Below are positions 1,455-5,336 of a DNA stretch of 64,000 nt, one piece after another. Every line of letters starts with the position of its first letter. Position 1 is the stretch's first letter. The stretch covers positions 124,001 through 188,000 of the forward strand of contig NZ_JARGDQ010000003.1 of NCBI RefSeq assembly GCF_029210385.1, given 5' to 3'. Made by a program: the position numbers and the translations under genes. Origin of the DNA: Desulfurivibrio dismutans. GTDB lineage: Bacteria > Desulfobacterota > Desulfobulbia > Desulfobulbales > Desulfurivibrionaceae. A model generated the notes under the pieces. That model did not search any database, had not been told where the DNA came from, and saw only the letters and a program-made list of their open reading frames with translations.

Positions 1455-3374
1455 TTATTTGTCGTCCTTGACCTCTTCATAGTCGGCATCGACCACATCG
1501 TCGTCGGGCTTGGCACCGCCGGAGGCGTCATCGCCGCCGGCGCCGGCTTCGGGACCGCCTGGCTGGCCGCCGGCCTGGGAGTACATCATTTCGGCCAGCT
1601 TGTGGGAGGCCTGGGTCAAGGCCTCGGTACCCTTCTTGATCGCCTCCACGTCTTCGCCTTCCATGGCCTTCTTGAGGTTGGCGATCTCGCCTTCGACCTT
1701 GCCCTTGGTCTCGGTGTCCACCTTGTCGCCCAGATCGCGCAGGCTCTTTTCGGTGGCGTAGATCAGGGAGTCGGCCTGGTTACGGGCCTCCACCAGCTCC
1801 TTGCGCTTGCGGTCCTCCTCGGCGTGGCCCTCGGCGTCCTTTTTCATCCGTTCAATCTCTTCCTCGGAAAGACCGCTGGAGGCCTGGATCTTGATGGACT
1901 GCTCCTTGCCGGTGCCCATGTCCTTGGCCGAGACATGGAGGATGCCGTTGGCGTCCAGATCGAAGGTCACCTCAATCTGTGGCACGCCCCGGGGGGACGG
2001 CGGAATGTCGGCCAAGTCAAAACGGCCGATGGTCTTGTTACCCGAGGCCATCTCCCGCTCACCCTGCAGCACGTGGATGGAAACCGCCGGCTGGTTGTCC
2101 GCCGCCGTCGAGAACACCTGGCTCTTCTTGGCGGGGATGGTGGTGTTCTTTTCAATCAGCTTAGTCATTACCCCACCCAAGGTTTCAATGCCCAAGGAGA
2201 GCGGGGTGACATCCAGTAGCAGTACGTCCTTGACATCGCCCTGCAATACTCCACCCTGGACGGCAGCACCGATGGCCACCACCTCGTCGGGATTGACCCC
2301 GCGGTGGGGATCCTTGCCGAAGATCTCCTTGACTTTCTCCTGCACCTTGGGCATACGGGTCATGCCGCCCACCAGGATCACCTCGTCGACGTCGGAAGCG
2401 TTAATGCCGGCGTCTTTCAGGGCGGTGCGGCAGGGGCCCTCGGTGCGGTCGATGAGATCCGCCACCAGCGACTCCATCTTGGAACGGCTCAGCTTGATGT
2501 TGAGATGCTTGGGCCCGGAGGCATCGGCGGTGATAAAGGGCAGGTTGATGTCGGTTTCCATGGTGGAGGAAAGCTCCATCTTGGCCTTTTCCGCCTCTTC
2601 CTTGAGGCGCTGCAGGGCCATCTTGTCCTGTCGCAGGTCGATACCCTGGTCGCGTTTGAACTCGTCGGCCAGCCAGTTGACAATCCGCAGGTCGAAGTCC
2701 TCGCCGCCCAGGAAGGTGTCGCCGTGGGTGGATTTGACTTCGAAGACCCCGTCGCCGATCTCCAGGATCGACACGTCGAAGGTGCCGCCGCCCAGGTCGA
2801 AGACCGCGATCTTCTCTTCGCTCTTCTTGTCGAGACCGTAGGCCAGCGAAGCGGCGGTGGGCTCGTTGATGATCCGCTGGACATTGAGACCGGCGATCTG
2901 GCCGGCGTCCTTGGTGGCCTGGCGCTGGGAGTCGTTGAAGTAGGCCGGCACGGTGATCACCGCGTCGGTGACCTTTTCGCCCAGGTATTCCTCGGCGGTC
3001 TGCTTCATCTTGCCCAGCACCATGGCGGCGATCTCCGCCGGGGCGTAGACCTTGCCGTCCACTTCCACGGCGGCATCACCACCGCTGCCCTCGACGATCT
3101 TGTAAGGGCTGATTTCAACGCTTTTCTTAACCTCGGCGTCGGTGAACTTACGGCCGATCAAACGTTTGATGGCGTACAGGGTGCGGTTGGGATTGGTAAC
3201 CGCCTGGCGCTTGGCCACCTGGCCCACCAGCCGCTCGCCGGCATCGTTGAAGGCCACCACCGACGGAGTGGTGCGAGTGCCCTCGGCATTAGTGATAACC
3301 TTGGGGTCACCGCCTTCCATGATCGCCACGCACGAATTTGTGGTTCCCAAATCAATTCCTATGATCTTACCCAT
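1455..3374 (-). CDS. dnaK: Chaperone DnaK (Hsp70)
   Basis: ATP-dependent Hsp70 chaperone that folds and rescues cytosolic proteins with GrpE and DnaJ. The N-terminal nucleotide-binding domain starts [16 protein letters not shown] and carries the phosphate loop [15 protein letters not shown] and [11 protein letters not shown]. The substrate-binding domain and helical lid follow, ending in the conserved acidic tail [14 protein letters not shown]. About 639 aa, full length. The ATG at 3374 is chosen because AAGGAG sits 8 nt upstream; a TTG two codons earlier is less likely. It is downstream of grpE with a 101-bp gap and followed by a strong terminator. No CIRCE operator or hrcA gene is visible nearby. 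Confidence 0.98.
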
Positions 3375-3475
3375 GATCAAATCTCCTTGTCTGAAAGACT
3401 AAAATATCCCGGCCTTGCGGCCGCTTTAATTTAAGCACGGTATTTCCGTGTGGTTTTAACAGTTACCGACCGGGG

Positions 3476-4075
3476 CTATTGCTCTTTTTGGCCGGAGCCG
3501 CTGGACACTACCACTTTGGCGGCCCGCAACAACCGGTCTTTGAAGAAATAACCCCGCTGAAATTCGCTGATGATAGTGTTGACCGGAGCTTCATCACTGG
3601 CCTCCATGACCATGGCCTCGTGCAGATTGGGGTCGAAGGTCTGCCCCATGCTGTCCATGGGTTTTAAGCCGAACTTTTCCAGGCTGGCCAGCAGACCCCG
3701 GTAAGTCATCTCCACTCCTTCCAGCAGGGCGGAAGCATCGTCGCTGTTGCGGCCCTGCTCGATGGCCCGTTCCAGATTGTCCAGCGACGGCAGCAACTCC
3801 TTCATCAGGCCTTCCTCGGCATACTTGAAGGAATTTTCCCGCTCCCGCTGCATCCTTTTCTTGTAGTTTTCAAACTCGGCGGCCAGTCGCAGCATCCGGT
3901 CTTCCAGGTCGTGGGCCTCGCTACGAGCCTCACTGAGCTGCACCAGCAGGTCATCGCTGCTGCCCTCATGGCTCTCCTGTTCGGCGGCCTGCAAATCAGA
4001 CTGCTCCTGCTGCTCCGCCTCCACCTCGAGATCCGGTCGCGGGGTGGGATTTTCAAATTTCTCCTTCTCACTCAT
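3476..4075 (-). CDS. grpE: Nucleotide exchange factor GrpE
   Basis: Co-chaperone that releases ADP from DnaK. A charged, glutamine-rich N-terminus leads into a long coiled coil (about residues 45-85, RSEAHDLEDRMLRLAAEFEN), followed by the compact beta domain with the family pattern MGQTFDPNLHEAM and NTIISEFQRGYFFKDRLLRAAKV. About 199 aa, normal length. The start at MSEKEKFE is preferred because GGAGGA lies upstream at usable spacing; an in-frame ATG six codons earlier (4093) is possible. It is the first gene of the grpE-dnaK unit; dnaJ is not beside it. Confidence 0.96.
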   Translation of the reverse strand: MSEKEKFENPTPRPDLEVEAEQQEQSDLQAAEQESHEGSSDDLLVQLSEARSEAHDLEDRMLRLAAEFENYKKRMQRERENSFKYAEEGLMKELLPSLDNLERAIEQGRNSDDASALLEGVEMTYRGLLASLEKFGLKPMDSMGQTFDPNLHEAMVMEASDEAPVNTIISEFQRGYFFKDRLLRAAKVVVSSGSGQKEQ

Positions 4076-4408
4076 ACTCACTGGTTCCTCCATAAAAAAC
4101 GAGCCCCTTCCGAACCCTCAAAAATTCCGGGCCGCCCGTTTTTTTCGTATTGTCGGGGCAATTCCGTGATCACCGGGAACGTTAAGTACGGCCCCGGAGC
4201 TTGTCAAGGCAAGGAAAACCATTAAATGGAAAATGACCGGGGCCGACAGAACATCACATGCACATTCACCACAGTTTCAGGCTGCCTTATTTGGGCTTTC
4301 ACTACGACACGGCGCTTGCCGACGGTTTGACAATTACCCGTTTTGCCCGTAAAGTTGTCATGATCCGCTGTTTGACCGGCACCACCACAACCCTCGGGGA
4401 AAACAACC
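4076..4408. other. Intergenic region, divergent promoters
   Basis: About 330 bp between divergent grpE and the carbonic-anhydrase-like gene. It holds the putative grpE promoter given separately and a short GC-rich tract followed by seven T residues near 4130-4147. Nothing coding is convincing here. Confidence 0.5.
4179..4207 (-). promoter_or_regulatory. Putative sigma70-type promoter of grpE-dnaK
   Basis: Read on the minus strand, a perfect TTGACA (-35) is followed after 17 nt by TAACGT, a weak -10. It points toward grpE, about 100 bp upstream of its start codon. No CIRCE inverted repeat or clear sigma32 -10 element is seen. Confidence 0.35.
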
Positions 4409-5194
4409 ATGATCGGAAAAAAAATTTGCACCCTGCTTCTGTTTGGCTGCCTGCTGGCCCTGTTGCCGCCCGCCGCCGCGGCTTTGGAACCGCTGCCCAA
4501 GATTCGGGCCGGCACCCCTCCCCATGCGGTGCTGGGTAATATCATGGGGGCCAACCGCCAGGCCCTGGGCGGAGTCAGTGCCACCGCCGCCGGGCGGCAA
4601 CTGGACCAGGCCCCGCACCTGGTCTGGCTGGCGGACCCGGACCCCCGGGTTAAGCCGGAGTTGATCTGGACCCACCAGGACGGCGGTATTTACACGGTGC
4701 GCAATCTGGGCAACCAGATGGAAACGGGCGCGGCGGCCGTCGATTACGGGGTCCGCAGCCTGCATGCCACCATTCTGCTGATCACCGGCAACACCGACAG
4801 CCAAGCCATTACCCTGTTCAACGATGGTTATGAACATTTGGGGGCGGATATCCGCCGGGAGTTGAATCAGCTTCACCCGGCGCTGGGCCGCCTGGTCGCC
4901 GAGACACCCCGAGATAGCGAGGACCGGAAAAAAATGCTGCTACGGCAGGTGGAGAGCAATGTCGATTACCAGGTTACCCGGGCTCTGGAACGCTACCGCG
5001 ACCGGGTTGATGGCGGCCGCCTGGTGGTGGTCGGCGGGGTGATCGACCTGGCCAACCACTATGGCGGCGGGTCGGGCCGACTGTACCTGATTAACCTCAA
5101 CGGCGAAACCGATCCGCGTCGCATCCGCGATGCCAGCCATATCGTGCGGGTGCACCCGGAAATGCGCGGCTACCTTGGCCGCCCCCAGCGATAG
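4409..5194 (+). CDS. Exported beta-carbonic-anhydrase-like protein lacking zinc ligands
   Basis: A 261-aa protein with a clear signal peptide (residues 1-25, cleavage near AAAALE). The body follows the beta-carbonic-anhydrase fold pattern. The DPRVKPELI and GGIYTVRNLGN segments align with the family's CSDSRV-PELIF and DLFVVRNAGN, and LLITGNTDSQA aligns with the zinc site VxGHSDCGA. In that alignment the three zinc ligands are replaced: Cys by Asp76, His by Asn128 and Cys by Ser131. The Asp-Arg pair (D78, R80) is kept. Classical zinc catalysis is therefore unlikely. It may be a structural, binding or regulatory descendant. It stands alone, divergent from grpE. The fold assignment is from motif alignment only. 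Confidence 0.7.
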   Translation: MIGKKICTLLLFGCLLALLPPAAAALEPLPKIRAGTPPHAVLGNIMGANRQALGGVSATAAGRQLDQAPHLVWLADPDPRVKPELIWTHQDGGIYTVRNLGNQMETGAAAVDYGVRSLHATILLITGNTDSQAITLFNDGYEHLGADIRRELNQLHPALGRLVAETPRDSEDRKKMLLRQVESNVDYQVTRALERYRDRVDGGRLVVVGGVIDLANHYGGGSGRLYLINLNGETDPRRIRDASHIVRVHPEMRGYLGRPQR

Positions 5195-5232
5195 CGAAAC
5201 AGGGACGGGGGGACGTACTTAACGAAAACAGC

Positions 5233-5293
5233 GGGGACGTACATAAAATTATAAGTTTCCTTGCGGGAAACTTATAATTTTATGTACGTCCCC
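5233..5293. repeat. Perfect 28-bp inverted repeat (long hairpin)
   Basis: Two perfectly complementary 28-nt arms, starting GGGGACGTACATAAAA, are separated by a 5-nt loop (TTGCG). The flanks carry further GGGACG/GTCCC words, such as GGGGGGACGTACTTAA at 5208-5223 and TACGTCCCCCC at 5303-5313. The hairpin lies between two rightward genes and could terminate transcription or be the end of a mobile or REP-type element. No transposase is nearby. Confidence 0.8.
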
Positions 5294-5336
5294 CGGTCCC
5301 TATACGTCCCCCCTACGGACGAGAGCACCCCACACC

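Follow-up and report, generated by a model that had tools for sequence, protein, structure and literature searches.

A putatively exported, zinc-less protein of the beta-carbonic anhydrase fold encoded beside grpE-dnaK in the Desulfobulbales

The locus beside grpE-dnaK

The window, that is, the whole stretch of 64,000 nucleotides of Desulfurivibrio dismutans that was analysed, carries at positions 4409-5194 of the forward strand a gene for a protein of 261 amino acids. According to its open reading frame, its Pfam match and its predicted fold, the product is a putatively exported protein of the beta-carbonic anhydrase (beta-CA) type without zinc ligands. The divergent neighbour is grpE (3476-4093, reverse strand) and the next gene beyond it is dnaK (1455-3380, reverse strand), as seen in the list of open reading frames and in the related loci. 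grpE and the gene are separated by 315 bp (4094-4408), which include a sigma-70-like sequence facing the gene (TTGACA-17-TAAAGT, 4327-4355, forward strand).

This arrangement is widely conserved among the loci of the proteins that resemble the window protein, referred to here as class A. grpE is adjacent and divergent, followed by dnaK, in 48 of the 51 loci; in two of the remaining three, grpE-dnaK is found on the opposite side at a distance of no more than 5 kb, and the third lies at a contig end. The outer neighbours of the class A gene differ between lineages, and its distance to grpE ranges from 172 to 585 bp (median 296, 26 measured loci). The shared divergent intergenic region suggests that the gene is co-expressed, and hence co-regulated, with the grpE-dnaK stress operon, but the association may also reflect the mere linkage of a slow-evolving region. 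HrcA/CIRCE control was rejected because no CIRCE element appears in the window, even with up to three mismatches allowed, and Rfam gave no match around the gene. A direct partnership with DnaK or GrpE is unlikely since both are cytoplasmic.

Just downstream of the gene, positions 5201-5314 hold a 28-nt perfect inverted repeat (GGGGACGTACATAAAATTATAAGTTTCC, with a 5-nt loop) within a larger imperfect palindrome. The GGGGACGTACATAAAATTATAAGTTTCC arm recurs at G000:C33:80503 (locus L181), about 160 bp upstream of the MPRQARIDAPGIAHHI... gene, which we take to encode a REP-associated (IS200-like) transposase. The downstream repeat is probably a REP-like mobile element.

Sequence and predicted fold of the protein

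The first 25 residues (4409-4483) read as a signal peptide, with Lys4-Lys5, a hydrophobic run and a likely cleavage site between AAAA and LEP. This feature, already pointed out in the earlier note on this DNA, is organised in the same way throughout the family, where a hydrophobic run directly precedes the conserved mature motif in 57 of 63 rows. The protein is thus predicted to be exported by the Sec system to the periplasm. The mature N-terminal motif KIRAGTPP (KxRxGxPP, 4499-4522) belongs to the zinc-less clade only, being present in 57 zinc-less rows and in none of 54 zinc-type relatives. Trp73 (4625-4627) is placed by the family-profile alignment at the position of Trp39 in HICA, the beta-CA of Haemophilus influenzae. 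In the DPDPR segment (4634-4648), Asp76 replaces the first zinc cysteine and the Asp78-Arg80 dyad is retained, while in NTDS (4790-4801) Asn128 and Ser131 replace the zinc histidine and the second zinc cysteine, respectively. Column conservation distinguishes Arg195, Tyr196, Arg199 and Arg204 (4991-5020) as a stretch in which basic positions were gained in the clade. The C-terminal extension NHYGGGSGRLYLINLNGE (5054-5107) is shared with exported zinc beta-CA paralogues and is missing from ordinary beta-CAs. All these features lie on the forward strand.

The Pfam scan returned Pro_CA (PF00484) with an E-value of 2.5e-13 and 51 bits against a cut-off of 25.7, so the resemblance to beta-CAs is not due to chance, and Pro_CA also matched 20 of 20 aligned zinc-less family members. 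Solved beta-CAs were matched by sequence as well, with E-values of about 4e-4 for the single sequence and 3e-13 for the family profile. The AlphaFold2 model (pLDDT 86, pTM 0.79) was compared with the PDB by Foldseek, and the matches listed were all beta-CAs, the best being Rv3588c of Mycobacterium tuberculosis (E 3e-11, TM 0.76 by target length). The control, an exported zinc-bearing paralogue modelled likewise, reached TM values of about 0.65-0.80 against single-domain beta-CAs, which indicates that the zinc-less protein resembles beta-CAs no less than a genuine one does. Hence, the beta-CA core that the earlier note had read from the letters is also what structure prediction yields, and no different fold emerged. 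Chance resemblance is ruled out by the Pfam, PDB profile and fold searches together, and a single-sequence or assembly error by the existence of 62 homologues.

Regarding other families, Pro_CA was the only Pfam match, with none to the CsoSCA, alpha-CA (PF00194) or iota (metal-free) CA families, and the protein has a single domain. The NCBIfam scan gave one unrelated match far below its cut-off. In the genome, no gamma-CA was evident among the Hexapep matches, two of which were read.

Loss of the zinc site in one clade

A scan of genome contigs with the single sequence gave no match, and 77 loci were recovered with the family alignment; 46 of 58 related genomes present a match at E 0.001 or better. 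The sequences were assigned by alignment to class A, to class B (exported proteins with Cys/His/Cys and the C-terminal GxGxLxIxNxNGE) or to class C (ordinary beta-CAs without the extension), and ligands were counted in a non-redundant set of 62 class A and 54 class B and C members. None of the 62 keeps any zinc ligand, whereas all 54 keep the three of them. Position 76 is Asp in 60 class A members, Glu or Pro in the other two and never Cys, and positions 128 and 131, which together with 130 are variable, are never His and never Cys, respectively. The replacement of Cys, His and Cys by Asp76, Asn128 and Ser131 proposed in the earlier note agrees with the alignment to zinc-type relatives, and the loss of the ligands extends to every homologue.

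The ligands are not supplied elsewhere either, because in class A (n = 62) no Cys column is conserved above 35% and no His column above 56%. An ADCDAR variant, in which a Cys immediately follows the position of the lost first ligand, was observed in 22 of the 62 members (class A loci of genus g4, such as L009 and L013); the window protein has Pro at that position. This Cys could possibly provide an alternative thiol in the pocket, but it is insufficient for a zinc site since the other ligands are still missing. These proteins are accordingly expected, judging from their alignment, to be free of zinc and devoid of CA activity.

Other residues around the site have been lost to different degrees. 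The Asp-Arg dyad, said in the earlier note to remain, does so in the window protein but not universally, as Asp78 is found in 60 and Arg80 in 55 of the 62 members; seven have lost the arginine and two have neither residue. Position 113 is Tyr or Phe, with Tyr113 mostly kept, and class A members mostly lack the substrate Gln (-9), which 40 of 40 exported zinc relatives have. Two loci of one family (f2), L054:647-1348 and L055:3512-4312, both on the reverse strand, encode further decayed members where the Asp and Arg of the dyad are both gone and no Pfam match is obtained. Both retain the signal peptide, a KKRAGLPP motif and the C-terminal extension, a pattern hinting that the conserved function resides in the termini rather than in the pocket.

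The tree comprised 80 rows, and the 45 of class A all came together in a single clade (SH-aLRT 100). The only other row without the exact triad, Cys-Tyr-Cys in L136, lies outside this clade. It comes from a Desulfurobacteriaceae (Aquificota) metagenome-assembled genome (MAG) and is an exported beta-CA relative (L136:5734-6576, forward strand) with GYTHC in place of GHxxC, so that the zinc His is changed to Tyr and a His stands two residues further on. When 258 genomes of the bacterial class were searched, profile matches at E 1e-20 were confined to the order of the window, Desulfobulbales by record names, and their full-length scores formed two groups (about 197 bits and more for class A, about 154-180 bits for class B). 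The named loci belong to Desulfurivibrio, Desulfobulbaceae, Desulfurivibrionaceae, 'Ca. Desulfobia' MAGs and loosely named bins. The zinc-less proteins are therefore one clade, found in these searches only in this order, and the zinc site was most simply lost once.

The window gene compared with four homologues gives dN/dS values of 0.20-0.43. Moreover, several columns are fixed in class A and absent or rare in class B: Lys31, Arg33, Gly35, Pro37 and Pro38 at the mature N-terminus (Lys31, Gly35, Pro37 and Pro38 at 100%), Trp73, Leu74, Asp76 and Thr126 on the old zinc floor, and a C-terminal Gly-Arg. Arg195, Arg199 and Arg204 reach conservation values of 0.95, 1.00 and 1.00 in class A against 0.00, 0.00 and 0.17 in zinc relatives. 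These columns read as remodelling and not as simple decay. A new conserved function, as the earlier note had suspected, is supported by the origin in one clade, the purifying selection, the synteny and the clade-specific invariant residues. This function is very probably not an enzymatic one.

Possible function and relation to known systems

The reading that we favour, and consider fairly probable, is that of a non-catalytic, Sec-exported periplasmic binding protein of the beta-CA fold derived from a duplicated exported zinc beta-CA. The zinc site of the duplicate would have disappeared a single time, in some ancestor belonging to the order, and the duplicate would then have been retained as a periplasmic protein working by binding, which is its most likely role. 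The former active-site floor would have been rebuilt with the hard, polar residues Asp76, Asp78, Thr126, Asn128 and Ser131 beneath the invariant Trp73, and the new basic set (Lys31, Arg33, Arg195, Arg199, Arg204 and Arg258) could offer a partner or an anionic ligand a surface to dock on. Expression could run together with the grpE-dnaK stress operon through the shared divergent intergenic region. Counting against a role in binding only, the largely kept dyad and the Tyr or Phe at position 113 could be remnants of a chemical function.

Bicarbonate or other anion sensing was also proposed in the earlier note, and the periplasmic protein could in principle bind bicarbonate, carbonate or another oxyanion in its rebuilt pocket and report it to a partner. 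Bicarbonate is a known effector of type II beta-CAs (PMC11086599), and among the PDB titles are the HICA variants W39V/G41A and Y181F, the second of them studied together with bicarbonate. In the family-profile alignment, Trp73 (62/62 in class A) falls on HICA Trp39 and Arg98 (58/62) on HICA Arg64, the numbering being counted from the alignment. The position that we take, from the alignment and general knowledge, as the equivalent of HICA Tyr181 is Tyr in 40 of 40 exported zinc relatives but Leu or Ile in 53 of 62 class A members (Ile212 in the window protein). The type II allosteric site formed by Trp39, Arg64 and Tyr181 is thus incomplete in the window protein, with the Trp and the Arg only. 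These two counterparts, the sole hint of this function, weakly favour bicarbonate binding; with the Tyr replaced and the Gln mostly lost, anion binding is possible but unproven. Since position 128 is variable and no partner or signalling gene is linked at the loci, sensing of this kind is doubtful. The more specific picture in which a dead beta-CA, wired to the grpE-dnaK stress locus across the order, acts in the periplasm as a free-standing receptor or effector of inorganic carbon or some other oxyanion seems quite unlikely.

The pocket of Asp, Asn, Ser and Thr might instead activate water without zinc, or bind Mg or Ca, which would make the protein a CA or other hydratase with no metal or with a different one. 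The exchange of soft for hard ligands (Asp76 in 60/62) and the mostly kept dyad and Tyr113 are compatible with this, and there is a precedent in KsCcr, an unrelated enzyme with metal-independent CA-like activity (PMC10966969). Furthermore, the family member is the sole Pro_CA protein in four genomes of the window's genus (G000, G002, G003 and G004), and PF00194 had no match in the G000 genome. Such an enzyme is nonetheless very unlikely given the variation at 128, 130 and 131, the two members with Glu or Pro at 76, the losses in the dyad and the mostly missing Gln. A non-catalytic subunit or scaffold of an active beta-CA, in the manner of the CsoSCA pseudo-dimer, would fit other genera, where class A coexists with a strong beta-CA (about 195 bits) and often with class B. 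In CsoSCA, a zinc-less C-terminal beta-CA domain is paired with an active one (PMC11086599). In the window's genus this is contradicted by the absence of any other Pro_CA protein (two of the genomes are rated 100% and one 99.99% complete), so an active beta-CA partner is not obligate; the class B gene is also unlinked to the class A gene, and the scaffold is highly improbable. A decaying pseudogene or functionless relic, which the further decay in L054 and L055 might suggest, is barely credible considering the dN/dS values, the intact frames, the conserved position, the invariant columns despite about 40% identity, and the termini that even these two members retain.

A non-catalytic binding protein would have parallels in known systems. 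The zinc-less protein resembles beta-CAs such as Rv3588c, HICA and the pea enzyme in fold, Pfam match, Asp-Arg dyad and order of elements, but it lacks the three zinc ligands and mostly the substrate Gln, and it adds the N-terminal motif and the C-terminal extension. Class B proteins, from the Desulfobulbales paralogue to those of Nitrosomonas, Thiobacillus and Gallionella, are closer, with the signal peptide, the core and GxGxLxIxNxNGE in common (about 30-41% identity). They differ in keeping Cys/His/Cys and GQxP, and a second N-terminal helix predicted in the zinc paralogue is not predicted in the zinc-less protein. Their genes in the order also occupy another place, often (loci L032-L044) with an ABC-F ATPase gene on one side and, on the other, a dGTPase-like gene and then the valyl-tRNA synthetase gene, these identities being read from the sequences.

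The vertebrate carbonic anhydrase-related proteins CARP VIII, X and XI are CA relatives without zinc ligands that are kept for non-catalytic roles, although they belong to the alpha class, with an unrelated fold. The closest precedent of the beta class is the C-terminal beta-CA domain of CsoSCA, which has no zinc site left and has turned into a binding or regulatory element; RuBP is bound close to the defunct site in the enzyme of cyanobacteria (PMC11086599). That domain, however, is fused to an active CA domain, cytoplasmic and carboxysomal. A binding role separable from catalysis has also been described for the Arabidopsis beta-CA CA4 acting on SLAC1 (PMC13128974), but this eukaryotic protein keeps its zinc and its activity. 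Our literature search, with subscription journals mostly outside it, found no zinc-less beta-CA family beyond CsoSCA and, to our knowledge, a free-standing exported one is undescribed.

The alpha class is well known to have zinc-less relatives, the CARPs, whereas the only beta-class example in the searchable papers is a domain joined to an active enzyme. Single in origin, retained throughout the order and fixed in position, the family described here would be a clear example of how an enzyme fold is put to a new use in binding. Annotation based on Pfam would label the protein 'carbonic anhydrase', which would mislead anyone reconstructing the carbon metabolism of Desulfurivibrio, a genus with no other Pro_CA match.
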